DNA from: Actinomycetaceae bacterium
GTDB lineage: Bacteria; Actinomycetota; Actinomycetes; Actinomycetales; Actinomycetaceae
Length of the DNA: 64,000 nt
Assembly (NCBI GenBank): GCA_030532405.1
Contig: JAUNLF010000006.1
Coordinates: forward strand, 1-64,000
Direction of reading: 5' to 3'
Shown here: in pieces, positions 945-25,417 of the stretch
Layout of the letters: every line of letters begins with the position of its first letter
Position numbering within the stretch: the stretch's first letter is position 1
Made by a program: the position numbers and the translations under genes
Notes under the pieces: model-generated
Databases searched by the model: none
The model's input: only the letters and a program-made list of their open reading frames with translations
What the model was told of the DNA's origin: nothing

Positions 945-979
945 GCGTGTAGTTAGTGTTAAAAGAGGGAAGAAAACTG

Positions 980-2065
980 ATGGATACGCGCTCGACGTCT
1001 ACGCGCCAACCAACCACTTACCGCCTTGGGGAGCTGTTTAGCGGCCCGGGCGGTCTTGCTGTTGGTGCTCACTTGGCAAATATTGGCAACGGCGACCGTA
1101 TCGCACACCAGTGGGCTACTGACTACGACGCAGACACAGTTAAGACTTATGCCGCGAACATTCCCGGCGCCTCCGCTGAGAGTGTAGTGCTATCAGATAT
1201 TCGAGAACTTGACTACCAAGTACTACACGATCTTGGAGATATTGACGCACTAGCGTTTGGTTTTCCGTGCAATGACTTTTCCGTAGTTGGAGAACAAAAA
1301 GGGTTTAACGGAGAATTTGGGCCGCTGTACACCTACGGCGTAAAAGCCCTCAAAGAGTTTCAACCGAAATGGTTCCTAGCTGAGAACGTGGGAGGACTAA
1401 GGAGCGCTAACGAAGGCGCCGCCTTCGTGAAAATCCAGCACGACCTGCGCGAAGCTGGCTACAAACTCGTCACTAACCTATACAAGTTCGAACAGTACGG
1501 CGTTCCACAAGCACGCCACCGGATCATCATTATTGGCATTAGGGACGACATCGATCGTGCTTATCGCGTTCCTTCGACCGAACCGTTTGAGGACGCAGAC
1601 GTGAGTGTGCGCACCGCTCTTACAGTGCCACCGATTACCCCTGACATGTCTGGCACTGAGAAGACGCGTCAATCGGCCACAGTTGTCGAGAGGCTAAAAC
1701 TGATCAAACCCGGTCAAAACGCTTTTACAGCCGACCTCCCGGAGCACCTCCAAATCAAGACCGCAACGAAGATCAGTCAAATCTACAAGCGCCTACACCC
1801 CGACCAGCCCGCCTACACAGTTACCGGTAGCGGCGGAGGAGGTACGCACATGTATCACTGGGATGAACCACGCGCACTAACAAACCGCGAACGCGCACGC
1901 CTGCAAACCTTCCCCGACGACTTCAACTTCCACGGGAGCAAAGAACAGGTGCGCAAACAGATCGGCATGGCCGTGCCAGCAAAAGGCGCGCAAGTAATCT
2001 TCGAAGCAGTCATGAAAACAATGGCCGGAATCGACTACCCAAGCCAAGAAGCAAACATGGACTAG
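980..2065 (+). CDS. DNA (cytosine-5)-methyltransferase
   Basis: This enzyme transfers a methyl group from S-adenosylmethionine to C5 of cytosine and should protect host DNA from the nuclease encoded next to it. The motifs occur in the standard order: motif I ELFSGPGG (about residues 18-25), catalytic motif IV PCNDFS with Cys97, motif VI ENV (135-137), motif VIII QARHR (177-181), a variable target-recognition region, and motif X GMAVPAKGA near the C-terminus. At 361 residues it is a normal length. The ATG at 980 is chosen because GAGGGAAG precedes it at good spacing; an in-frame GTG at 956 lacks this. It lies 59 bp before the nuclease gene on the same strand. No controller-protein gene is seen. 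Confidence 0.92.
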   Translation: MDTRSTSTRQPTTYRLGELFSGPGGLAVGAHLANIGNGDRIAHQWATDYDADTVKTYAANIPGASAESVVLSDIRELDYQVLHDLGDIDALAFGFPCNDFSVVGEQKGFNGEFGPLYTYGVKALKEFQPKWFLAENVGGLRSANEGAAFVKIQHDLREAGYKLVTNLYKFEQYGVPQARHRIIIIGIRDDIDRAYRVPSTEPFEDADVSVRTALTVPPITPDMSGTEKTRQSATVVERLKLIKPGQNAFTADLPEHLQIKTATKISQIYKRLHPDQPAYTVTGSGGGGTHMYHWDEPRALTNRERARLQTFPDDFNFHGSKEQVRKQIGMAVPAKGAQVIFEAVMKTMAGIDYPSQEANMD

Positions 2066-2124
2066 CCCAAAGAGGTTTATCTTTCAGTACAGTTGTAGAA
2101 AACCACTGGCTCGAAAGACTAACC

Positions 2125-3711
2125 ATGCACAACACTTGGTGGGTAACACGCCCCAAACGCTACCTTGCCTCCGTGCCGCGCGCTCTCGCAGCGGTGTCCT
2201 TGGCTGTTGGCACCCCTTGGAAAACGCAAGACAAGACCACTGAGCTACAGATCGAAGCGGCACTAGAAGCCTCCAACGTTAAGAGAGTCGGCACTAGACG
2301 AGACCAACAAGGCGGCGGCGCGCGCACCTACAGATCATGGCTAAAGAGTCTGGGCCTGCTGTTTATGGACAACCAAGACCGCTTACAGCTAACCCTTGCT
2401 GGGGAAGACCTGCTTAAGGGCGAGAACCCCATTCCTATCCTTAGAAAACAAGTTCTTGACTTCCAATACCCTTCAAACTGGGCTTTGAAAGGCGCCTCAA
2501 GTGTAAACCCGAGGTTCCGCCTCCACCCCTTTAGATTCATCCTTGGACTCTTAGCCGATGAGCGCCTTGAAGGCTACCTCACTGAAGCTGAGGACGTAGC
2601 AAAGATAGTCATCTGCTACGCCGAAACCCCCGACAGCCACGAAGACGTGGTGGAACGTATCTTGCAGCTACGCCAAAAGGGCGACGCCTCCCTGGAGACT
2701 GACTATTACGAGACATTCAAATCAGGCCGCATAAGTCACGGCCGCCTAGACAAGCTCTTTAGCAATCACGCCGATATTGCTAACACACTGGGCAACTGGC
2801 TCGAATACTCCCAACTCATTGTCAGAGACGCTGGAGCGTGGAGACTAAACCCGGTTGCAGACTCCCTCATCGAAGCAACGCTAGGGCAACGGCCAAAACT
2901 GATAGACCGCGCCGACGATGAAGAATACTTCCAACGCCGCTACGGTATCGGGCTTAACCGCACTAAAGACCTGCGCGACTTGACCAACTCGCGCACCATC
3001 TCAAAGGCTCTCATCGAGGAACACAACCTCAACGCCTCCTATCTGGGCATTGCCAGCCAAAAACTCATCACCAGAATAGACGCCAGTCTTGTAGGTGAAT
3101 TAGCTAAGAAAGCTGGAACCACACAGGCTACGGCCGAGCGTTTTCTGCACCGAAACTACCCCAAGGGCAGCGCCAACCTATTCTTGTCCGAATACGCGGA
3201 TATGGCAGTAGCCTCCAGAACCCGAGCTACAGAGTTCGAGATAGCCACTGTAGAAATCTTCCAGCAAGTCTTTGGCTACGACGCCTTCCACATAGGCGCG
3301 CAAGGCGTAGTGCCGGACATTTACCTTGAATCCGCCTCCGAGCGCTACAGCGCGATTATCGACAATAAAGCATACAAGGACGGGTATTCCATCACGAATG
3401 ACCACTTCAACCGAATGACCTACAACTACATTCCGGAGATAGACAGCTACCGGCCGACCACGAATAGCTACGCTCTTGCCTTCTTTACCTACATTGCGGC
3501 CGACTACAAGAAAACAGTAAACGCAAAACTTAAAGAGATTAGTGATCAAACCCAAGTGGCAGGCAGTCTGATCACCGCAACGAGCGTGATCCACCTAGTC
3601 GAGCTACACCAAGACAAGCCCTTCACCCACCAAGCTCTTAGACAGCTGTTCTCACTAGGTAAAGCAATCACTATGCAAGACATTCACGAGATTCACTCCA
3701 ACGCCGCATAA
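2125..3711 (+). CDS. Restriction endonuclease with FokI/AlwI-like cleavage domain
   Basis: Likely the nuclease partner of the adjacent methyltransferase. The 528-residue protein has a long N-terminal part that probably recognises DNA, including winged-helix-like stretches. Its C-terminal region (about 370-510) resembles the FokI/AlwI cleavage domain: an E-rich helix, FGYDAFHIGAQG, PDIYL with Asp398, then IIDNKAY with Asp413 and Lys415, followed by GYSI and a Met-containing helix. This is the PD-(D/E)xK order, with KAY..GY as in FokI. FokI-type enzymes usually cut outside an asymmetric site; specificity cannot be read here. The ribosome binding site is weak, so translation may depend on the upstream gene. 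The cleavage-fold call is firm; the subtype is inferred. Confidence 0.8.
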   Translation: MHNTWWVTRPKRYLASVPRALAAVSLAVGTPWKTQDKTTELQIEAALEASNVKRVGTRRDQQGGGARTYRSWLKSLGLLFMDNQDRLQLTLAGEDLLKGENPIPILRKQVLDFQYPSNWALKGASSVNPRFRLHPFRFILGLLADERLEGYLTEAEDVAKIVICYAETPDSHEDVVERILQLRQKGDASLETDYYETFKSGRISHGRLDKLFSNHADIANTLGNWLEYSQLIVRDAGAWRLNPVADSLIEATLGQRPKLIDRADDEEYFQRRYGIGLNRTKDLRDLTNSRTISKALIEEHNLNASYLGIASQKLITRIDASLVGELAKKAGTTQATAERFLHRNYPKGSANLFLSEYADMAVASRTRATEFEIATVEIFQQVFGYDAFHIGAQGVVPDIYLESASERYSAIIDNKAYKDGYSITNDHFNRMTYNYIPEIDSYRPTTNSYALAFFTYIAADYKKTVNAKLKEISDQTQVAGSLITATSVIHLVELHQDKPFTHQALRQLFSLGKAITMQDIHEIHSNAA

Positions 3712-3825
3712 AGTGCGGCCGTAGCAGCGCACACCTCCTACACGCTATAGGTTGCGTGCATTAACGGTCGTTTTTGCGCGCTCTGCGCGGCCGCACACGC
3801 GGCCGCGAAATACCGGCACTACTGC

Positions 3826-3889
3826 GCGTGCAAAACTTGCGCGCAAAACTCCCATCGTTCAAAACTGCGTGTCGATGAGTTTTGCACGC
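3826..3889. other. Res-like recombination site
   Basis: GCGTGCAAAACT (3826-3837) and AGTTTTGCACGC (3878-3889) are perfect 12-bp inverted repeats. Between them are further AAAACT half-sites, including a CAAAACT/AGTTTTG pair 11 bp apart, and the palindrome TTGCGCGCAA (3837-3846). Dyad subsites directly upstream of a resolvase gene are the usual layout of a res site, which also autoregulates the resolvase. Confidence 0.6.
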
Positions 3890-3929
3890 CCGCGACATAG
3901 AATTATTGGAGAGCGGGAAGGAGCTTGAG

Positions 3930-4484
3930 GTGAGTCTTATTGGTTATGCGCGCGTGTCTACGGCCGAACAACATCTAGACGCGCAACTTGCTGCGCTTAA
4001 TGACGCGGGCTGTAGTCGTGTCTTTACCGATCAAGCCTCTGGAGCGCGCACAGACCGACCCGAACTAGCGGCCGCGCTGGACTACTTGCGCGAGGGCGAC
4101 ACTCTAGTGGTGTGGAAGCTTGATAGGCTCGGCCGCTCACTTGCACACCTTGTGCACGTCATTGAGGACTTAGAAAAGCGCGGCGTGGAGTTTCGTTCCC
4201 TTAGCGAATCGATCGACACGACTACTCCGGGCGGGCGTTTGGTGTTCCATATGGCGGCCGCCTTCGCGCAGTTTGAACGCGACCTTATACGCGAGCGTAC
4301 TAATGCAGGCTTGGAAGCCGCTCGGGCTAAAGGAAAAGTGGGAGGCCGTCCCAGCGTTATGACTGCTGATCGGATCAAGGCCGCTAGGGACATGTACAGC
4401 CAAGGCGCCACTTACACGCAAATAGGCGCGGTGCTTGGAGTGAGTCGCTCTAGTGTTTCGCGGGCGCTTAATAATGAGGCGTGA
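3930..4484 (+). CDS. Serine recombinase (resolvase/invertase family)
   Basis: This site-specific recombinase cuts DNA through a 5'-phosphoserine and would resolve multimers or cointegrates of the element. The N-terminus IGYARVST carries catalytic Ser10, and KLDRLGRS and the FERDLIRERT helix are typical of the family. The C-terminal 45 residues form a Hin-like helix-turn-helix (TQIGAVLGVSRSSVSRAL). At 184 residues it matches small Tn3-type resolvases. The GTG at 3930 is chosen because GGGAAGGAG precedes it and the product then starts two residues before IGYARVST; the longer frame from 3882 would overlap the res-like site. It is not a large serine integrase, so it probably does not drive integration of the whole element. 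Confidence 0.9.
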   Translation: MSLIGYARVSTAEQHLDAQLAALNDAGCSRVFTDQASGARTDRPELAAALDYLREGDTLVVWKLDRLGRSLAHLVHVIEDLEKRGVEFRSLSESIDTTTPGGRLVFHMAAAFAQFERDLIRERTNAGLEAARAKGKVGGRPSVMTADRIKAARDMYSQGATYTQIGAVLGVSRSSVSRALNNEA

Positions 4485-4576
4485 ACGCTTGGCGTTCACA
4501 CTGTTACTACCGCGCGCGGCGCGGTAGCCTCACGCACGGCGTGAGCATTTGCCTTTAGTAATGGCGCGTTGCGCCA
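4481..4576. repeat. Cluster of short perfect hairpins with 3-nt loops
   Basis: Four consecutive perfect palindromes, each with a 3-nt spacer, follow the resolvase: GTGAACGC-ttg-GCGTTCAC (4481-4499), CTACCGCGC-gcg-GCGCGGTAG (4507-4527), CTCACGC-acg-GCGTGAG (4529-4545) and TGGCGC-gtt-GCGCCA (4562-4576). A fifth starts the repeat that follows. The first overlaps the resolvase stop. They may act together as a terminator or be a palindromic repeat family. Confidence 0.7.
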
Positions 4577-4582
4577 CTTGGA

Positions 4583-4608
4583 CGCGCACGGTGTGCGCGC
4601 GGTTTTTT
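4583..4608 (+). terminator. Rho-independent terminator after the resolvase
   Basis: CGCGCAC-ggt-GTGCGCG (4583-4599) is followed after CGG by six Ts. The same structure is at 7348-7373 in copy B of the repeat. Confidence 0.6.
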
Positions 4609-4830
4609 CTTAGTGGTTTTTTCCTGCTGGCTTTCCACTCTACGACGCGCGGCAGTGTTGCCAAACGCTACGCGTTCAAGCACGCGGAGGCTTTCGCGGC
4701 ATAAACCACTTCGCTTGCGCTTCGTTATTTATTCCACGATCCCCCGCCTACTTGCCCTGCGGGTGACAACACTGCCTTAATCGCGTCGTTATCGCTTTGC
4801 TCGCCAGCAGGCAAAAAAGAAAGTCACACC

Positions 4831-4857
4831 CGGCACACAGGGAACAAGTCCCAGCCG
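4831..4857 (+). promoter_or_regulatory. Conserved leader hairpin, copy 1
   Basis: CGGC-acaca-GGGA-acaag-TCCC-a-GCCG forms an outer and an inner stem separated by an asymmetric internal loop, about 22 nt before the ATG of the following gene. The same hairpin with small changes occurs at 5468-5493 and 7596-7623, each before a gene. The best guess is a cis-regulatory RNA or protein-binding hairpin. Confidence 0.5.
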
Positions 4858-4879
4858 AACTTTAGAAAGGAAAGACAAC

Positions 4880-5368
4880 ATGTCTACTCGTTCTTATGTA
4901 GGAGTCATCGAGGGCAACACGATCAGCTTCATCTACGTGCATTTTGACGGCTACTTGCAAGGCGTGGGTGCCGCACTTGCCACCGGGTTCCCCAAAGCAA
5001 AGGACATTAAACCCATCATCGCCTTGGGAGACAGGTCAGGACTGACTCTAACCAGTTATGCAGGAGACGGCGACTCATATGCAGAGCAAGGCGAAGTTAG
5101 TGACCACCTCAAGCCTTCCACGCGGACGATCGCCCAAGGCGCGAAAGAGGAGACAATCAAGGAACTAATTACCTATGCAGGCCAAAATGGAATTGAGTTC
5201 CTATACCTACTCGACGGCAAGAAATGGCGGGCATGGAGCTGCTTCATGGAGTGGGCAGGCAAAGAGCACGACTTGTCCACCTATTGCAAGGCCGGGTTCG
5301 CGTGGCAGATCACCGAGCTCGCTAGAGCTTGGAGAAAGCAACAGGCACCAGCGCCCATACCAGCTTAA
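4880..5368 (+). CDS. Conserved mobile-element protein of unknown function
   Basis: The N-terminus MSTRSYVGVIEGNTISFIYVHFDGY matches a pattern I know from small phage and plasmid proteins (an MxTRSxxGI start, then HFDGY) whose function is not established. The 162-residue protein has no membrane segment or signal peptide, is mixed alpha/beta by composition, and ends in a Pro/Ala tail. Its ribosome binding site (GAAAGGAAA) lies at the end of the 294-bp repeat. A GC-rich hairpin follows at 5376-5400, so it is probably a single-gene transcript. Confidence 0.65.
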   Translation: MSTRSYVGVIEGNTISFIYVHFDGYLQGVGAALATGFPKAKDIKPIIALGDRSGLTLTSYAGDGDSYAEQGEVSDHLKPSTRTIAQGAKEETIKELITYAGQNGIEFLYLLDGKKWRAWSCFMEWAGKEHDLSTYCKAGFAWQITELARAWRKQQAPAPIPA

Positions 5369-5375
5369 GCGCATC

Positions 5376-5400
5376 GAGCGGCCGCCAGCGGCGGCCGCTC
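5376..5400 (+). terminator. Hairpin after the 162-aa gene
   Basis: GAGCGGCCGC (5376-5385) pairs with GCGGCCGCTC (5391-5400) over a 5-nt loop. There is no T-run, so termination is possible but not certain. Confidence 0.4.
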
Positions 5401-5429
5401 AACCAGTTCAAAACAATAAGCGAAAACAC

Positions 5430-5459
5430 TTGACGTGTCCGGTTGATCGGACATACAAT
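5430..5459 (+). promoter_or_regulatory. Promoter with an operator dyad filling the spacer
   Basis: TTGACG (5430-5435) and TACAAT (5454-5459) are close to consensus with an 18-bp spacer. That spacer is exactly the dyad TGTCCG-gttgat-CGGACA (5436-5453). A protein bound there would sit between the two RNA polymerase contacts. It drives the gene at 5517. Confidence 0.7.
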
Positions 5460-5467
5460 TTAGGGGA

Positions 5468-5493
5468 CGGCACACAGGGAACAAGTCCCGGCC
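5468..5493 (+). promoter_or_regulatory. Conserved leader hairpin, copy 2
   Basis: GGC-acaca-GGGA-acaag-TCCC-g-GCC lies about 24 nt before the ATG at 5517. It keeps the hairpin seen at 4831 and 7596 although the surrounding sequence differs. Confidence 0.5.
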
Positions 5494-5516
5494 ACAGAGA
5501 TCAAGGAGAGATTCTC

Positions 5517-6290
5517 ATGATGACAACGCAACTTAACCCGACACTAGCGCACGCAGTCCACGGATTGTGGACGGTCACCACGGTAGGCGGGGTGACGTAT
5601 CAAGCAACGCTTCGCAGAAACCCTGACGCAAAAGGTTGGATTGTGAGTGTTGTTGATACGCGCACCGGCGCAGCCGTACTACTAGCACACCCGCTAACTA
5701 CACCGAATTATGGAGATGTTGCTTGGGTGCTTGACCGGCGCGCGCGTGACCTTAACGGCGGCAAACCTGAGCTATTGGGCGTGGACTTTAACGAGTACCG
5801 GGATTACGCGGCCGAGTGCCGCGATAAGGAAGTGAAGAACCCGCAACGGTTCATTATCACTGAGAGCCCGCGCGGGGAGTTTTGGGCGGGAACGATTGCA
5901 GACCTCCTTCGGTTCGACAACCATTATCAGCGCGCGTATGACTACTTGCGCTACTCCGGGCTACTCGCTGAGCCGGATGAAGATGACGACGACTACCCGC
6001 AGATGAGCGACATTTACGCCGCGATGACGCGGGAGGCGTTGCAGGCGGCGTGCGACGCGGACTTTGTTTACGTTACTGATCTTTACGGTGACGTGCTTGG
6101 AACTCTTGACACGCTACAGGCCACCATCGAGGGCTGGGACGGCACCGAACGCGAGGTTGCCCTTGCTCATCACAGTTTTATGATTGCTCAACTCGTAGTC
6201 GATACCGGCAGCGCAAAGCGGGTCGCGAGCGTGACGGGCTTGAGTGAAGAGGACGTGCTTGAACGCGTTAAACGCGCAAGAGCAAAGTGA
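5517..6290 (+). CDS. Hypothetical protein with acidic linker
   Basis: No family is recognised. The 257-residue protein has a beta-rich N-terminal third (TVTTVGGVTYQATL..GWIVSVVD), a helical middle, and a strongly acidic stretch EPDEDDDDYPQMSD about two-thirds along. The C-terminal 70 residues look helix-turn-helix-like (SAKRVASVTGLSEEDVLERVKRA). The ATG at 5517 has AAGGAGAG upstream. It has its own promoter with an operator dyad and the shared leader hairpin, so it is probably regulated. The next gene, an HTH protein, starts 64 bp downstream on the same strand. Confidence 0.55.
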   Translation: MMTTQLNPTLAHAVHGLWTVTTVGGVTYQATLRRNPDAKGWIVSVVDTRTGAAVLLAHPLTTPNYGDVAWVLDRRARDLNGGKPELLGVDFNEYRDYAAECRDKEVKNPQRFIITESPRGEFWAGTIADLLRFDNHYQRAYDYLRYSGLLAEPDEDDDDYPQMSDIYAAMTREALQAACDADFVYVTDLYGDVLGTLDTLQATIEGWDGTEREVALAHHSFMIAQLVVDTGSAKRVASVTGLSEEDVLERVKRARAK

Positions 6291-6354
6291 ATCAACGGCG
6301 GTGAGGGGCGCGCCTAGCTTGCCCCTCACCTCAAGACAATAGGGAGCATCAATA

Positions 6355-6777
6355 GTGGATGGGACGGAGTTTTACTACAAGCGGAGGGGAATGGGGCTTA
6401 CGCAAGAAGAACTTGCAGTACAGCTCGGTGTTAATGAGCGGACTGTTAGGCGATGGGAGAAAAATGACTTCACCATTCCCGAAGGTGTCACGCAAGATTT
6501 AAACGAGTTGTACACCAGCTTTGGTGAGCGCGTCCTATCATCGGTGGATTTACTACTTGAGCAATTCGAATCTGTTCACGACGGCGCAGGCCAGAGTCGT
6601 GACGACCCTGACGGGCGGCCAGTAGTTGAAATCGCCACGTTTAAAACACCTGAATCGCACGAGCTTGCTCACCCCGGAGAGTCATGGACGCAGCATAAGG
6701 CGTTGGTCTCCGCTATCGGCATGGTCTTGGCAGGCGAGGGCTTTAGCGTGCGGTTTACAAGCGTCACTGAGCAGTAA
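6355..6777 (+). CDS. XRE-family helix-turn-helix protein
   Basis: A 140-residue DNA-binding protein. Residues about 8-40 (RGMGLTQEELAVQLGVNERTVRRWEK) form a Cro/CI-type helix-turn-helix. The C-terminal 70 residues have no recognised domain. It starts with GTG behind AGGGAG. It is 64 bp after the 257-aa gene and 17 bp before the next gene, so the three are probably one transcript. It is a candidate regulator of the dyad-containing promoter at 5430, but this is inference from position only. Confidence 0.7.
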   Translation: MDGTEFYYKRRGMGLTQEELAVQLGVNERTVRRWEKNDFTIPEGVTQDLNELYTSFGERVLSSVDLLLEQFESVHDGAGQSRDDPDGRPVVEIATFKTPESHELAHPGESWTQHKALVSAIGMVLAGEGFSVRFTSVTEQ

Positions 6778-6794
6778 GCAGGGAGGGACTAGTA

Positions 6795-7184
6795 GTGGAA
6801 GACTACGAGTTTGAAGCGTTTATGGGTATTCCAGGCTTGGAATACTCTGAGGAAGCGTTAGAAGTTATCCGCTATGTGTTTGAAGAATACGAAGCGGAAC
6901 ACAAGTACAGGCGCGATGACGGCACCGACTGTGAGTGGGAGTACGAGCTGCGCTTTCCCGAGTTTGCCAGCGGGGTAGTGGGTGTCGCGGAGGGAGTCGT
7001 GACCCTTGAGAATATAAAGAAGGAATGGGCAGACGCCCACCAGAAGCTCATGTACAAGCAGGCGGAGCTTGTAGGCGCAGTGCGCGCGTCGCACGCGATG
7101 GGAATGAGTGTAGCGGACATCAGGCAGAAGACCGGTCTGTTGGAGTGGGTAATTGAACAATGGCTGGAGAGAGCCTTTGACTAG
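6795..7184 (+). CDS. Small acidic hypothetical protein
   Basis: The 129-residue product is very acidic in its first half (EDYEFEAFMGIPGLEYSEE..FEEYEAEH). It ends in a region resembling a sigma-70 region 4 or HTH fold (AVRASHAMGMSVADIRQKTGLLEWVIEQW). The GTG start has GGGAGG upstream, 17 bp after the preceding HTH gene. Two strong hairpins follow its stop. No function can be named; a DNA-mimic or small regulator would fit the composition but is unproven. Confidence 0.5.
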   Translation: MEDYEFEAFMGIPGLEYSEEALEVIRYVFEEYEAEHKYRRDDGTDCEWEYELRFPEFASGVVGVAEGVVTLENIKKEWADAHQKLMYKQAELVGAVRASHAMGMSVADIRQKTGLLEWVIEQWLERAFD

Positions 7185-7216
7185 TCCGGCTTTGTTTGTT
7201 CAGGTCTGCATTACTT

Positions 7217-7277
7217 AACCGCCTGCCCCTTGATTGGGCAGGCGGTTCCTAATCTCTGGCACGGAGATTAGGAACCG
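7217..7277 (+). terminator. Two overlapping, mutually exclusive hairpins
   Basis: AACCGCCTGCCC (7217-7228) pairs with GGGCAGGCGGTT (7236-7247). CGGTTCCTAATCTC (7243-7256) pairs with GAGATTAGGAACCG (7264-7277). Bases 7243-7247 are used by both, so only one can fully form. This is terminator- or attenuator-like structure at the end of the three-gene transcript. Confidence 0.6.
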
Positions 7278-7344
7278 TACAAGTGGGGGGCGTGGAGCAC
7301 GCTTTGCGTGCGCTGTATTGGTTCGGGCGTTGCCCGGTGTATGC

Positions 7345-7639
7345 GGACGCGCACGGTGTGCGCGCGGTTTTTTCTTAGTGGTTTTTTCCTGCTGGCTTTC
7401 CACTCTACGACGCGCGGCAGTGTTGCCAAACGCTACGCGTTCAAGCACGCGGAGGCTTTCGCGGCATAAACCACTTCGCTTGCGCTTCGTTATTTATTCC
7501 ACGATCCCCCGCCTACTTGCCCTGCGGGTGACAACACTGCCTTAATCGCGTCGTTATCGCTTTGCTCGCCAGCAGGCAAAAAAGAAAGTCACACCCGGCA
7601 CACAGGGAAACAAGTCCCAGCCGAACTTTAGAAAGGAAA
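7345..7639 (+). repeat. 295-bp direct repeat, copy B (structured leader)
   Basis: Second copy of the segment at 4580, 2765 bp away in the same orientation. It differs by one extra A in the terminal hairpin loop (GGGAAACAAG against GGGAACAAG). It gives the dprA-like gene its leader and ribosome binding site. The gap upstream (7278-7344) holds two more 3-nt-loop hairpins (7297-7311 and 7324-7336) and no gene. Confidence 0.9.
7596..7623 (+). promoter_or_regulatory. Conserved leader hairpin, copy 3
   Basis: CGGC-acaca-GGGA-aacaag-TCCC-a-GCCG lies 20 nt before the dprA-like ATG. It is the same hairpin as at 4831 and 5468, with a 6-nt instead of a 5-nt loop. Confidence 0.5.
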
Positions 7640-7643
7640 TAGC

Positions 7644-8339
7644 ATGACGACTCTAAACGGACTTATTGAAGGCGAGTCAGTAGCTACCTACAAGATTGAA
7701 GCAGGAGGCATTAACTGGCCAAGTGCTCTTAATGTTCTTGGAGATAAGGCGCCTAAGTCTTTGTGGGTGAAGGGGCAACTGTCGGATGCGCCACGTGTTG
7801 CGATTGTGGGTAATCGTGGGTGTAGCGTGAACGGGTTTGCCTTTGCGCGAGAGTTAGCAGGTGATCTTGCCAAGCTTGGGATAGAGATTGTTTCAGGAGG
7901 GGCTTGCTGTATTGGCACTGCCGCTCACATGGGCGCGTTGGAACACGGCCGCACGATAGCTGTCCTTGCTGGAGGCGTGGAGAATCTATACCCGAAGTCG
8001 AACTCGGACTTGTTTGCCAAGATAGCCCAACAAGGTGCGCTAGTGAGTGAGTATGAGCCGCAGTGTCCTCCTACGCGCGGATCGTTCTTGAGGCGCAATG
8101 AACTAATCGCGGCGTTGGCTGATGTCACCGTGATTGTGGACGCGTCGAGGCGGTCGGGCGCTGTGCACGTTCTTGAGATTGCGCGCAAACTTAATCGACC
8201 AACGGCGGCGGTGCCAGCTAATCCAAGCGAGGAAATGGCAGCTGGATGTAACGAAGCGATCAAGCGCGGTCATGCGCACCTAGTGACTTGTGCACGCGAC
8301 GTTATTGAGCTTCTTGATCATCAGCTAGTCACTCCTTAG
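7644..8339 (+). CDS. DprA/Smf-like DNA-processing protein
   Basis: DprA proteins bind incoming single-stranded DNA and help load RecA; plasmid copies are thought to act on transferred strands. The 231-residue protein is essentially the DprA Rossmann core: RVAIVGNRGCSVNG (about 51-64), SGGACCIGTAAHMGALE (84-100), FLRRNELIAALAD (148-160) and VIVDASRRSGA (163-173). The family's usual GIDxAAH reads CIGTAAH here, so one conserved Asp is missing. The C-terminal winged helix of full-length DprA is also missing. It sits between the duplicated leader and the mobilisation genes. Family is firm; a role in conjugation is inferred from position. Confidence 0.85.
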   Translation: MTTLNGLIEGESVATYKIEAGGINWPSALNVLGDKAPKSLWVKGQLSDAPRVAIVGNRGCSVNGFAFARELAGDLAKLGIEIVSGGACCIGTAAHMGALEHGRTIAVLAGGVENLYPKSNSDLFAKIAQQGALVSEYEPQCPPTRGSFLRRNELIAALADVTVIVDASRRSGAVHVLEIARKLNRPTAAVPANPSEEMAAGCNEAIKRGHAHLVTCARDVIELLDHQLVTP

Positions 8340-8425
8340 GTGCTAGACGTAGCGTCGACGATAGTTGAGTTCTTCGAACTTGTTGCGGAGTCAAACTCGA
8401 TTAGCTCTTAGATGCTCATATGTTT

Positions 8426-8457
8426 GTGGCCTCCAACCCGAGCGGGTTGGAGGCCAC
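8426..8457. terminator. Strong hairpin between convergent genes
   Basis: GTGGCCTCCAACCC (8426-8439) pairs perfectly with GGGTTGGAGGCCAC (8444-8457) over a 4-nt loop. It lies between dprA (+) and the 85-aa gene (-) and probably terminates both, though no T-run follows. A second dyad, CTGCGGCCGC/GCGGCCGCAG (8536-8567), lies nearer the minus-strand gene. Confidence 0.55.
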
Positions 8458-8605
8458 GACGCGATTACAAAATGAACAAAAACGGAACCGCGATGTATTG
8501 AGTCTAACTCATTGCCGCGCAAACACTGGCGCGAGCTGCGGCCGCACAATGCCATGCGCGGCCGCAGTACTTTGGCGTGATGAGATTAGTGCGTGTTGTG
8601 GAGTC

Positions 8606-8863
8606 TCACTGTTCTTGAGTGTCGTATGAGGTGGAGGCTTGCTCGATCTTCTTGACCTTGGGCAACTTGGTTGCGTCGAAGAATCCAGCAGCGAGTAGGT
8701 CACGCTTAAGCCAGCCCGCGTCGATTGCAGCTTTGTGTGCGTCCTTGTATGTAGACACGGCCGCTTCGAGTGCAACCATCGCTTCACCTAGTTCACGCAC
8801 AGCGCGTTCTTTGTTCTCATCACGGTTGAGTAGCTTGGCAACAGGATCGAACTGAGTAGTCAT
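8606..8863 (-). CDS. Small helical hypothetical protein
   Basis: The 85-residue product is predicted helical, with a heptad-like middle (ENKERAVRELGEAMVALEAAVSTYKDAHKAAI) and a Lys-rich end. It has no recognised domain. ATG 8863 is chosen because AAAGGA lies upstream at normal spacing; a longer frame starts at 8878. It is divergent from mobC across the oriT-like region, a position often taken by relaxosome accessory or regulator genes in mobilisable elements. Function unknown. Confidence 0.5.
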   Translation of the reverse strand: MTTQFDPVAKLLNRDENKERAVRELGEAMVALEAAVSTYKDAHKAAIDAGWLKRDLLAAGFFDATKLPKVKKIEQASTSYDTQEQ

Positions 8864-8911
8864 TAATTTTCCTTTCACATCGTAAAGCCCATCGTTTGAT
8901 GGCTTCGTAAG

Positions 8912-8932
8912 TTACGTAGGGTGTGCGCGCAC
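8912..8932. promoter_or_regulatory. Operator-like motif shared with the transfer operon
   Basis: The 21-bp sequence here starts TTACGTAGGGTGTGCGC and matches 18 of 21 bases of the sequence at 20740-20760 in front of the T4SS operon. An overlapping dyad GTGTGCGCG/CGCGCACAC (about 8921-8945) adds symmetry. It may be bound by a common regulator of mobilisation and transfer genes. Confidence 0.45.
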
Positions 8933-9197
8933 AAAACGCGCACACCCCCAGACCCGACCCGACCTGTTGTAACTACACGCACGTGCGGGCGTGTGAGGTG
9001 ACCTGTGCCGACGTGTTTCGCGTGCGCTTTGCGCGCACGCCCGCGCGCCACAGGCGCGGCCAATGGAAAGGGCGTAGCCCTTCGCCGTTCTCGCAAGCGC
9101 GCGAGGCGACGCGCGAAGAATGAGCGGCGGCATCTACTCGCAGTAGCTTGCAACCCGAGCCAACCAAACGCACAAGGTGCGATTACCTTGCGACCTA

Positions 9198-9290
9198 GCA
9201 CGCGCAACAGCGCGTGCGGACGCCCGGGTAGCAAGCTATATGTTATTGGTACCAATAACAGGCTTGCAGGTAGACACGGGGTTCTACCTG
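9198..9290 (+). other. Candidate origin of transfer (oriT)
   Basis: The 483-bp gap 8864-9346 holds no gene but is dense in dyads. These include GCACGCGC-aaca-GCGCGTGC (9198-9217), a perfect 20-bp palindrome TGTTATTGGTACCAATAACA (9241-9260), and CAGGTAGA-N8-TCTACCTG (9267-9274/9283-9290). A further hairpin, AAGGGC-gta-GCCCTT, is at 9068-9082. Inverted repeats directly upstream of mobC and a relaxase gene are typical of oriT; the nick site cannot be placed. Confidence 0.55.
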
Positions 9291-9346
9291 AGGCACACTA
9301 GAAGTGTGATCCCTTCGGGTCGCTTCGCTGAGGAGACTGAGACTAG

Positions 9347-9763
9347 ATGAGTGCCATGAACGATTCTGAGCGGCAGAGCGTAGCGCCGAGCGACGTTCGT
9401 CGTGCACCTCGTTCAGTTAATGGAATTCAGCGCACGTCCCTACGCGTTCATTTGACTATTAGTGAGCGCGCCCTGCTTGAAGCGAAGGCTCGCAATCGCG
9501 GTTGGTCTCTTTCGCGCACGCTCGTACACTCCGCGCTGCACCCAACGTCGGCAGAAGATATTGATTCAGACAATCTTGCTGAGGTCATTACTGATTTACG
9601 CGACTACCGCCGCAAGCTTGCTGGCATGGCGAACAATCTTAACCAGCTCACCCGCTATGCGCACTCAAAGCAGGAACTACCCAAGCAAATTGAGGACGTG
9701 CTTGGGCAGGTAGAACGTAGCGTTGATGAGATCAACTATTTGCTTGCGAGCGTGCGCCGATGA
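9347..9763 (+). CDS. MobC-like relaxosome accessory protein
   Basis: The protein should bind near oriT and help the relaxase nick DNA. Its 138 residues have a disordered N-terminus and then a ribbon-helix-helix-like segment (TSLRVHLTISERALLEAKARNRGWSL, shown in part). A helical domain with LRDYRRKLAGMANNLNQLTRYAHS follows, the signature region of bacterial MobC proteins. GAGGAG lies about 13 nt upstream; a second in-frame ATG at 9356 is possible. The stop overlaps the relaxase start by 4 nt (ATGA), so the two are translationally coupled. Confidence 0.82.
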   Translation: MSAMNDSERQSVAPSDVRRAPRSVNGIQRTSLRVHLTISERALLEAKARNRGWSLSRTLVHSALHPTSAEDIDSDNLAEVITDLRDYRRKLAGMANNLNQLTRYAHSKQELPKQIEDVLGQVERSVDEINYLLASVRR

Positions 9764-11583
9764 TCCCCAATATCGTTGATGGTGGAGACATGGGCGGCCT
9801 CATGCGCTACTTGGTTGGGCCGGGTCGCGCTAATGAGCACACCGAACCGCACCTAGTCGCCGGTTCACGCACGATCATGAACAGATGGGGCGACTGGAAT
9901 GAATTGTCCGTAGCGCAAGCAAGTGAGATAGCGAACTATCTCGACTCGTTTATGCAAGAGACCGAAAGCTATCCAACCGGGCCGATTCGCAAGTTCGATC
10001 CTGAGACAGGTAAGACCCGAGCAGTCGATTACGGGCCTAACCACGTGTGGCATTGTTCGGTGTCGCTCTCTCCTGACGAAGGCCCCCTATCGGAGGACAA
10101 GTGGGCTGCCATTGCGAGCGACTTCATGGATCAGATGGAGTTTACTTCCGCGTCGGGGAAGGCTGAGTGTAGATGGGTTGCAATCCATCACGGCGTGTCG
10201 AAGAACGGCGGCGACCACATTCATATCGCGGCCAACATTATTCGCGAGGACGGCACGCGATGGAATTTCTGGAACGATCAGCCGCGTAGCCAGCGCGCGT
10301 GCAACATGCTGGAGCACAAGTACGGGCTACGTATCCTAGAGTCGCGTGAGCACGCGCGTGGTTCTAAGTGCGATAGCGCGCAGGCGCTCAATGCCGCTAA
10401 GCGCGCAGGCAAGCCAGTCACTGATCGCGCGGCGTTGGAGACGCGGTTGCGCGCCGCATCGAAGGCGGCAGGCAATGAAGTAGAGTTCATCCGCAACGCG
10501 CGTAGCATGGGCGTGAGGTTGCGTCCGCGCTTTGCTAAGGGCCGCACCGACGTGGTGGTTGGTTACTCCGCCGCGCTACACACCAAGCCCGGTGTGAAGA
10601 CGCAATGGTATGCGGGAGGCTCGATCGCGCGAGACTTGACGCTCAGTGCATTGCGCGAGCGTTGGCCAGACACTATTGAGCACTCCAGCGAGGCAGTGAG
10701 CGCGTGGCAAGACGCTTGGAAGGGAATGCCGCTTCGCCCACAACGACGCTCTTACACTACACAAGAGTGGCAGGGGCATAAGCGCGCGTTTGAAACTTAC
10801 CGTGAGCACCTTTGCGGGGTTGATCCATCTGACCCGCTTGCACTTGCCAACGCCACTAACGATGTGGCGGGCCTTCTAGCTGCGGCCGCGCAACAGCGAG
10901 ACCTTAGTGAGGACGAGAGGCGCGCACTTGATTTCGCGGCGCGCCAAGTTGGTCGCAACGCCCAACTCAAACACCGTCCGGCCAAGCATACTGGCGCCAG
11001 TCCTTGGGTCGTGCTTGGCGCGCAACTGCTTAGCACTGCAGTTATGCCGAAGAACAGTGAGGTCAGCTACGCGCTCATGCTCGTAGCCACACTTGAGCTG
11101 GTCAAAGCATTGGCTGACTTGTACGTGCAAGCACAGCAAGCCAACACGGCTAGGGCAATGCTGCGTGATACTCGCGCCGTGTACGACTACTTGCACGCCG
11201 ATGGCGCGCCAGTGCCGCACGACTTCAACGAGCTCCAACTTAACGCACCGTTGCAACAAGACGCGCTACCCGAAAGTGTTGCAACACCTTCCGAGCCGCT
11301 CACAGTCGATGAGATTGTCGAGCCTTCGCTCGCACACGCTAGTGCGCAAGTGGACACCAAGGGTGCGGATGACTTTAACCAACAGCTACGCAAGCAGTAC
11401 CCGTGGCTGGTCATGCCTGAAGACTTCACCGGCCGCACAAGTGCTAACGGTGATCAAAGCAGGCAGTCCCGCCCCCACCTGCCTGACATGCCGCCACCAT
11501 CGACTAAGAAGAAGCGCAAGGGCTCTCACCCCCTTCCCCCACCCTTTGACCCGTTTGGGCGCGGGCAGGGTCGTGGCCGTTAG
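9760..11583 (+). CDS. Relaxase (MobA/VirD2 type)
   Basis: Nicks oriT and becomes attached to the 5' end of the transferred strand. The N-terminal domain carries HVWHCSVSLSPDEG and the metal-binding motif HHGVSKNGGDHIHI, with His143, His153 and His155. Tyr17 in MRYLVGPG is a plausible catalytic tyrosine. A helical middle follows. Residues about 410-470 hold a hydrophobic stretch (VVLGAQLLSTAVMP and on), and the C-terminus is Pro-rich and basic. At 607 residues it is typical of actinobacterial relaxases. It overlaps mobC by 4 nt and is followed by a DUF4913-like gene. The relaxase call is firm; the MOB class is not assigned. Confidence 0.9.
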   Translation: MIPNIVDGGDMGGLMRYLVGPGRANEHTEPHLVAGSRTIMNRWGDWNELSVAQASEIANYLDSFMQETESYPTGPIRKFDPETGKTRAVDYGPNHVWHCSVSLSPDEGPLSEDKWAAIASDFMDQMEFTSASGKAECRWVAIHHGVSKNGGDHIHIAANIIREDGTRWNFWNDQPRSQRACNMLEHKYGLRILESREHARGSKCDSAQALNAAKRAGKPVTDRAALETRLRAASKAAGNEVEFIRNARSMGVRLRPRFAKGRTDVVVGYSAALHTKPGVKTQWYAGGSIARDLTLSALRERWPDTIEHSSEAVSAWQDAWKGMPLRPQRRSYTTQEWQGHKRAFETYREHLCGVDPSDPLALANATNDVAGLLAAAAQQRDLSEDERRALDFAARQVGRNAQLKHRPAKHTGASPWVVLGAQLLSTAVMPKNSEVSYALMLVATLELVKALADLYVQAQQANTARAMLRDTRAVYDYLHADGAPVPHDFNELQLNAPLQQDALPESVATPSEPLTVDEIVEPSLAHASAQVDTKGADDFNQQLRKQYPWLVMPEDFTGRTSANGDQSRQSRPHLPDMPPPSTKKKRKGSHPLPPPFDPFGRGQGRGR

Positions 11584-25031: not shown

Positions 25032-25406
25032 ATGAGCATTGAACGAATTGCGGCAAGCCTAACGCCTGCGCAAGCCACCGGCTTAACCGTCAATCAGATT
25101 ATGTTTTTTCAGGGTGTTACCCGGTCTGAATTGGCTAAGCGGGTAGGACTTTCGCGCCCCTCCATTTCGCTGAAGATTGCCGGAGAGGTTAGCTGGTCGC
25201 TCGAAGACCTCTTGTCTGTAGCGGCGGCACTAGGTGTCGAAGCAGAGCAATTGCTGCCCAAGCGTGATAGCTCTGGCAACTGGATTCCGGCGCCGTTTGT
25301 GCCCGGACATGCAAAAACCCCCGCTTACGCGGGGGTGTCATCGGAGCCACCTGTGGGAATCGAACCCACGACCTATTCATTACGAGTGAATCGCTCTGCC
25401 GACTGA
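25032..25406 (+). CDS. XRE-type HTH protein whose end is encoded by a tRNA gene
   Basis: The 124-residue product has a clear Cro/CI helix-turn-helix (about 18-75: MFFQGVTRSELAKRVGLSRPSISLKIAGE, in part, then SLEDLLSVAAALGVEAEQLL). The last roughly 35 residues (from about KTPAYAGV) are translated from the tRNA-Thr terminator and the complement of the tRNA gene itself; PPVGIEPTTYSLR is the familiar false translation of tRNA complements. The reading frame thus crosses the element/chromosome junction, and the native C-terminus may have been different. It is divergent from the excisionase-like gene and probably a regulator of that operon. Confidence 0.7.
   Translation: MSIERIAASLTPAQATGLTVNQIMFFQGVTRSELAKRVGLSRPSISLKIAGEVSWSLEDLLSVAAALGVEAEQLLPKRDSSGNWIPAPFVPGHAKTPAYAGVSSEPPVGIEPTTYSLRVNRSAD
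25313..25336 (-). terminator. tRNA-Thr terminator
   Basis: Read on the minus strand, ACCCCCGC-gtaa-GCGGGGGT is followed by TTTTT, 8 nt past the tRNA 3' end. It is a typical Rho-independent terminator. Confidence 0.85.
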
Positions 25407-25417
25407 GCTAAGGCGGC
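25345..25417 (-). tRNA. tRNA-Thr (anticodon CGU)
   Basis: The minus strand gives a full cloverleaf of 73 nt. The 7-bp acceptor stem is GCCGCCT/AGGTGGC, the D arm contains AGCTCAGTCGGCAGAGC, the anticodon loop CTCGTAA carries CGT, the T arm is GTGGGTTCGATTCCCAC, and the discriminator is T. CCA is not encoded. It is the boundary between the accessory region and the core chromosome, and tRNA 3' ends are common integration sites; the 3' end faces the element. Confidence 0.95.

Follow-up and report, generated by a model that had tools for sequence, protein, structure and literature searches.

Two directly repeated copies of a 294/295-nucleotide (nt) leader lie near the start of contig JAUNLF010000006.1 from an Actinomycetaceae bacterium (assembly GCA_030532405.1), within the 64,000-nt stretch analysed here, which we call the window. 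One copy precedes a gene for a 162-residue protein and the other a DprA/Smf-like gene; both stand upstream of mobC and relaxase genes, and each reads into a gene oriented toward these. We are fairly confident, judging from sequence, that the leader is a single-strand promoter, similar to the Frpo promoters of F, which would serve early expression in the recipient of a conjugative transfer. What is shown directly is the sequence and its homologues, strand-specific conservation of structure, promoter-like boxes that recur in the family on the strand that folds, and how the elements are oriented with respect to relaxase genes.

The layout of the leader had been described in an earlier, sequence-only reading of the window, and its anatomical claims are borne out. 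The two copies align with one inserted A and no mismatches, start 2765 nt apart and share an ungapped identity of 265 nt, beyond chance; a terminator-like hairpin opens each copy, outer and inner arms of nested inverted repeats are present, and AGAAAGGAAA, the ribosome binding site, closes each copy (Table 1). That reading overlooked a third arm pair nested between these two, the recurrence of 26 nt of the leader's 3' part (4831-4856) on their own ahead of a third gene, and the fact that the part of the leader conserved elsewhere is its central ~50 nt. The whole 2.2-Mb genome holds no further leader sequence besides the two copies and this 26-nt stretch.

Searches of the genus and family found the leader at 77% across most of its length in one genome (G010) and, in two copies, at 64-65% across ~240-266 nt in another (G007). 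Seven more genomes matched weakly: Scrofimicrobium canadense (G184) and Trueperella bernardiae (G192) contain the conserved core, and among the matches of the other five (G033, G077, G091, G099, G197) some look like chance. A plasmid search with the leader returned only its middle part, in three Corynebacterium plasmids. Homologues set side by side yielded a core of 26 bases, TTTCRCGGCATAAA ... ATTTATTCCAYG, interrupted by a variable hairpin. Scanning 84,980 genomes located this core in at least 118 stretches, and 11 viral contigs (IMG/VR) contain it too; it is present in at least six phyla (Pseudomonadota, Bacillota, Bacteroidota, Cyanobacteria, Acidobacteriota and Actinomycetota), as assigned from organism names, many of the records being metagenome assemblies. 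Its distribution is sporadic: among 396 genomes drawn from the window's own phylum, the exact pattern occurs in the window's genome only. With a 70-nt probe we obtained matches in 107 plasmid records, of which 89 are typed as conjugative or mobilizable, and none in a phage collection at E up to 0.1. We rejected a phage origin on that result, the 11 IMG/VR contigs being viral by database label only. Several elements occur in two or three copies, which are identical along the leader in the window (bar the inserted A), in G007 and in two of the three X. hortorum copies, nearly identical in Leisingera and C. striatum, and alike in the core region only in the remaining X. hortorum copy and in X. 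albilineans.

The counts that follow rest on loci from genome and viral contigs among the matches listed. The loci contain 132 core matches, 126 of them flanked on either side by 100 nt or more; removing flanks at least 75% identical left 92 elements, 81 from genome contigs and 11 from viral contigs, and one containing N was dropped later, leaving 91.

Structure in these elements favours one strand. Relative to shuffled sequences, the window leader folds best as minus-strand DNA (z = -4.90), against z = -2.56 for plus-strand DNA and -2.47 for plus-strand RNA. Across the family, the minus-type strand, which is complementary to the RNA sense and hence the template strand, folds better in 91/92 elements for the core +/-20 nt, in 89/91 for +/-40, in 91/91 for +/-60 and in 86/91 for +/-80. 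Because this bias is partly built into the core, we swapped the core for a neutral loop: with 20-nt flanks the minus-type strand was still the better folder by 74 to 18, and 320 control windows of the same loci split 155 to 160 (p = 0.72). Wobble-compatible mismatches in 25-nt arms of the 91 elements, counted after aligning the arms by Watson-Crick pairs only and ignoring wobbles in pairing, number 56 on the minus-type strand and 5 on the plus (p = 6e-12), with corresponding ratios of 80:18, 107:35 and 122:40 for arms of 40, 60 and 80 nt; 15 elements of plasmids or integrative and conjugative elements give 41 vs 4. The window's own arm mismatch, written as 'Y' in the sequence-only reading, forms a G.T wobble, and does so on the minus strand alone. 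Covariation, which we measured by arm swap and pairing counts, is evident as well: an element's own arms pair better than swapped ones in 88/91 cases (-16.3 vs -8.7 kcal/mol), and at the R/Y pair of the core 84 elements have G-C, 7 have A-T and none a mixed pair, although the search pattern permitted mixtures. The earlier suggestion of selection on structure is therefore supported, by own-arm pairing, the compensated core pair and strand-specific wobbles alike; a duplication unique to this strain, with homologues showing neither covariation nor a tie to gene starts, is not what we found, the core being present in at least six phyla and covarying. The wobbles, fold and arm pairing are as expected from selection on single-stranded DNA of one strand, unlike selection on RNA.

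Promoter-like boxes occur on the same folded strand. The right arms read TTGAC in sense in 55/92 elements and the reverse, GTCAA, in 0/92; mirrored left arms carry the sense motif in 38/92 and the reverse in none. In 58/91 elements the folded strand has a TTGA -35 box on its 3' arm, and in 42 of these 58 a -10 signature follows at a spacer of 13-16, defined by the two key bases of the -10 hexamer (A in the second place, T in the sixth); other spacer bins show 3-11 of the 58. The linear plus strand has this signature in 9/57 at spacer 13-16 and in 5-14/57 in other bins. Mean pairing probability within the fold is ~0.9 at the -35 and ~0.55 in the -10 region. A stem that rebuilds both -35 and -10, the mark of a single-strand promoter, is thus found for the family; the window has the stem, with weak boxes. 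Two tentative placements exist there: one follows the family pattern, with its -10 inside the GGCAGTGTTG stem noticed in the sequence-only reading, and the other, TTGGCA-16-TAGAGT (9/12), comes from a consensus scan and has its -10 where the fold is mostly unpaired. That scan found 5 promoter-like sites in the region, against a mean of 2.0 in shuffles. An ordinary promoter on double-stranded DNA was tried and rejected: the linear plus strand has TTGAC in 55/92, but its -10 signal does not rise above its own background.

A structured regulatory RNA, proposed in the sequence-only reading, has some precedent and is nonetheless disfavoured. The EGeRS1 repeats of the Gram-positive element pLS20 are likewise duplicated structured leaders before establishment genes, the window leaders end in a ribosome binding site, and the module of their 5' untranslated region (UTR) also occurs behind a normal-looking promoter. 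In pLS20, however, it is the non-template strand that is transferred (PMC8708921), whereas structure here favours the template strand. Because the wobbles, the folding energy and the -10 signature, enriched on the folded minus-type strand only, all fall on the strand that is not RNA-sense, and with Rfam covariance models giving no match across 3700-9800 up to E = 1, we hold an RNA leader to be unlikely.

Position relative to transfer genes mostly fits a single-strand promoter. Among 22 element-bearing plasmid records, a relaxase, mobC or oriT-proximal tra genes are visible in 15, and in 13 of these 15 the order is element, genes, then oriT/relaxase, all in one direction (F and L165 were judged from traM/traY, their relaxase being outside the view); the remaining seven (L012, L163, L167, L170, L171, L174, L176) have no annotated relaxase in the stretch. 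The core has 0-1 substitution in eight of the 13, is divergent in four (5 substitutions in F, L157, and ColIb, L160; 3 in L165 and L166) and is reduced to its left half in L172. The window is laid out concordantly, as are G007 and G010, where the relaxase-like open reading frame (ORF) was judged by resemblance. Two Curtobacterium plasmids share the element and the block downstream of it, with different relaxases next to them.

The window and the annotated plasmids inspected show an association with gene starts; in genome and viral contigs it is less clear, the first downstream ORF being same-sense in 53/90 loci as found by a crude ORF caller. We scanned 41 of these 53 (at least 80 residues, beginning over 20 nt away from the core) and 27 of the 37 opposite-sense ORFs (at least 100 residues). 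The same-sense set includes ArdA (1), ArdC (3), RadC (3), SSB (2), N6/N4 methylase (2), ParB (1), DUF932 (1) and SprT (1), together with transposase-type domains and unrelated genes; the opposite-sense set has one C5 methylase, the rest being transposase, integrase and unrelated domains. Families that we class as establishment genes make up 14/41 same-sense and 1/27 opposite-sense first genes (Fisher p = 0.003), a contrast that is tempered by the choice of families after the gene list was known and by the unequal length filters of the two sets. Behind the G007 element stands an ORF that is SSB-like by inspection.

We suggest the following sequence of events. The element would enter the recipient as a single strand, the window's minus strand, with its 5' end at an oriT presumed to lie near 8900-9350, and the leader stretch on this strand would fold into a long hairpin. 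Its stem would rebuild a double-stranded -35 and a partly open -10, directed away from the loop, with the conserved core between loop and -35, the position of an UP element. The recipient's RNA polymerase could then start at the hairpin and transcribe toward oriT, so that the 162-residue and DprA-like proteins would be made before the second strand; the leader RNA may also act as a primer for the second strand. When the DNA became duplex, the hairpin would be lost and expression would end. We infer the minus strand as the transferred strand of the window, the use of the hairpin by RNA polymerase, and the timing.

The same strand and fold would suit a single-strand initiation (ssi) site that chiefly primes the second strand, with gene expression secondary. 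Frpo transcripts have both roles (PMC7736820), some copies lack a same-sense gene, and of the three functions offered in the sequence-only reading a replication or packaging site comes nearest, Frpo/ssi transcripts also priming the complementary strand. Both window copies, however, place a UTR and ribosome binding site before a gene, and establishment functions are enriched among same-sense genes; we favour the promoter and regard priming as the chief role as improbable. The other function offered there, with the leaders as substrates of recombination or of a resolvase through which the 2.8-kb cassette could be removed, is very improbable: the near-identical direct repeats 2765 bp apart and a nearby serine recombinase gene suit it, but the structure is also conserved where only one copy is seen, strand asymmetry is left unexplained, the F copies Frpo1/Frpo2 are treated as a recombination risk and not as serving that purpose (PMC9849209), and we found no mark of a dedicated excision site in the copies, which could still recombine in the ordinary way.

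Besides the same-sense proportion and the reservations on gene families given above, several observations weigh against a single-strand promoter. The loci were collected by pattern, so core identity is partly by construction. Near-identical copies are dispersed, several at contig ends, among Accumulibacter/Zoogloea and Caloramator contigs, and of the four inspected loci L118, L061, L140 and L127 the first two have transposase-like ORFs nearby. Two plasmids, L168 and L175, have perfect cores in discordant orientation. Among the divergent enterobacterial cores, those of ColIb and L165 have a slight folding advantage on the other strand, and that of F favours the expected strand by a small margin only; C. 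callunae shows one expected and two unexpected wobbles, L012 and L168 have wobbles of neither kind, and the T. bernardiae copy lacks the outer stem. In the window, both candidate box pairs are weak, and oriT and nic were not found: four TAWCCTG matches lie in the window and none in the mob region, which offers inverted repeats only, so that the transferred strand is taken from gene layout. An insertion-sequence end may apply to some of the dispersed copies; for the window leaders we rejected it, the genome having no repeats of them elsewhere.

Frpo1/Frpo2 (ssiD) of F and ssi2/ssi3 of ColIb-P9 resemble the window leaders, as we read these, in several ways: a long imperfect hairpin lies on the transferred strand within the leading region, copies that are nearly identical stand a few kb from each other, transcription runs toward oriT, and folding rebuilds a -35 and a -10. 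In the F stretch before ssb (L157 8380-8500), which we take to be Frpo2 by its position, the expected strand folds better (-33.9 vs -30.1) and no core is present; within the F and ColIb sequence searched, the nearest approach to the core, 5 of 28 letters off, lies elsewhere, upstream of a DNA methylase gene. Frpo1 and Frpo2 are 92% similar and ~5 kb apart (PMC9849209). The divergent-core site may be the 'Frpo (ssi) upstream of ecoGIXM' mentioned in PMC7736820. With its -10 spacer of 13-16 and hosts that span phyla, the family described here looks distinct from the F-type Frpo sequence family.

On the IncN plasmid R46, too, leading-region genes such as ardA are preceded by repeated upstream sequences, presumably the CUP repeats; these contain, by inspection, an ordinary TTGACT/GATAAT-type promoter. 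The repeats before ardA and its neighbours (L158 23212-26643) have GGGCATAAAA...AAATTCCGT, which is loosely core-like, with stem letters that do not match. We rejected them as homologues, the best core-like match in the R46 stretch being 8 of 28 letters off. The Frpo' and Frpo* candidates of Samuel et al. 2024 (PMC11541004) are alike in proposed function and in belonging to leading regions where anti-defence genes lie. BLAST and a consensus of -35, -10 and UP served to find them, the accessible text names no core motif, and they may overlap with the present family. A published search of PLSDB at E 1e-6, with 5 known Frpo sequences and 13 putative ones as queries (PMC12826799), would probably miss a short core. 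The accessible portions of PMC11541004, PMC9849209, PMC7736820, PMC8708921, PMC10104558, PMC12826799 and PMC11730352, a coverage with few subscription papers and no preprints, do not mention the core, and a literature search for ten of its letters gave only unrelated titles among the matches listed.

The start of the window looks, from its genes, like part of an integrated or mobilizable element (Table 1). The contig begins inside it, so only one element end lies within the window; chromosomal-looking genes begin at ~25.5 kb, and a tRNA-Thr gene between the two is a possible attachment site. Large genes, conjugation-ATPase-like by inspection, follow the relaxase. An ORF resembling a homologue of the 162-residue gene stands behind the G010 element. 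For the DprA-like protein the top PADLOC match is ShosA, and plasmids often carry DprA-like genes, many of them actinobacterial (220 records). An ORF (7234-7545) runs across copy 2; a protein-coding reading was considered for it and set aside. Terminator-like hairpins are frequent in the region (10 sites vs a mean of 4.4 in shuffles). The partial copy follows an ordinary-looking promoter, TTGACG-18-TACAAT (5430-5459; 10/12), whose spacer is a perfect inverted repeat (TGTCCG...CGGACA) and likely an operator; the product of the helix-turn-helix gene downstream might be the repressor acting on it.

Table 1. Positions of the leader, its parts, neighbouring genes and related loci (window coordinates unless a locus is named).
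Feature	Position	Strand	Remarks
C5 methylase and FokI-cleavage-domain restriction enzyme	956-3711		near left contig edge
Serine recombinase gene	3882-4484
Leader copy 1	4580-4873	+	294 nt; proposed single-strand promoter and 5' UTR; transcription proposed rightwards, folded strand minus
Leader copy 2	7345-7639	+	295 nt, one A more than copy 1
Terminator-like hairpin with T run	4583-4599, to 4609 (copy 1); 7348-7364, to 7374 (copy 2)	+	hairpin scan
Long imperfect hairpin	4623-4811	-	three nested arm pairs
Outer arms	4623-4631 / 4803-4811		CCTGCTGGC / GCCAGCAGG
Middle arms	4642-4649 / 4782-4789		ACGACGCG / CGCGTCGT
Inner arms	4651-4662 / 4765-4776		GGCAGTGTTGCC / GACAACACTGCC
Candidate -35, TTGAAC	4674-4679	-	tentative, family pattern; 3' arm of folded strand
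Candidate -10, AACACT	4654-4659	-	tentative; 14-nt spacer
Alternative candidate, TTGGCA-16-TAGAGT	4637-4664; copy 2: 7402-7429	-	consensus scan
Core, copy 1	4692-4738	+	TTTCGCGGCATAAA-N21-ATTTATTCCACG flanking apical hairpin
Core, copy 2	7457-7503	+	letters as in copy 1
5'-UTR module	4831-4873	+	GGCACACAGGGAACAAGTCCC ... ribosome binding site; in part common to 5468-5493
First gene after copy 1	4880-5368	+	162 residues; no Pfam or PADLOC match
Third, partial copy	5468-5493	+	UTR module only
Gene after partial copy	5517-6290	+	257 residues; no convincing family
Helix-turn-helix gene	6355-6777		Aca2/YdiL-like match at cut-off
First gene after copy 2	7644-8339	+	DprA/Smf-like, PF02481, 5.3e-55
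MobC / NikA-like relaxosome protein	9347-9763	+
MobA/VirD2-like relaxase	9760-11583	+	PF03432
tRNA-Thr (cgt)	25343-25417
Divergent core in F	L157 4010-4061		upstream of DNA methylase gene
Divergent core in ColIb	L160 5722-5773		upstream of DNA methylase gene
Concordant plasmids	L011, L013, L157 (F), L160 (ColIb), L161, L162, L164, L165, L166, L169, L172, L173, L177
Dispersed copies	L051, L071, L080, L084, L118, L140; L028, L061, L111, L130		Accumulibacter/Zoogloea and Caloramator contigs

The sequence-only reading thus stands in its claim of selection on structure, and gives way on regulatory RNA and excision. Beyond the window, we lean towards a broader view: that one promoter family, in which a near-fixed core of 26 bases occupies the UP position and -35 and -10 are spaced 13-16 nt, serves conjugative and mobilizable elements of any relaxase class in at least six phyla, Gram-positives included, as a shared 'entry promoter' for very different RNA polymerases. 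What makes the family interesting is how widely it is spread and that its signature belongs to one strand. If the reading is true, early expression from incoming single-stranded DNA would be a widespread strategy with a recognisable signature, reaching beyond the enterobacteria; the core would offer a handle on leading regions, transfer direction and new anti-defence genes where oriT is unlocated, as in the window; and one core serving hosts of differing sigma-factor preferences, such as Bacteroidota, Bacillota and Actinomycetota, would pose a testable puzzle.

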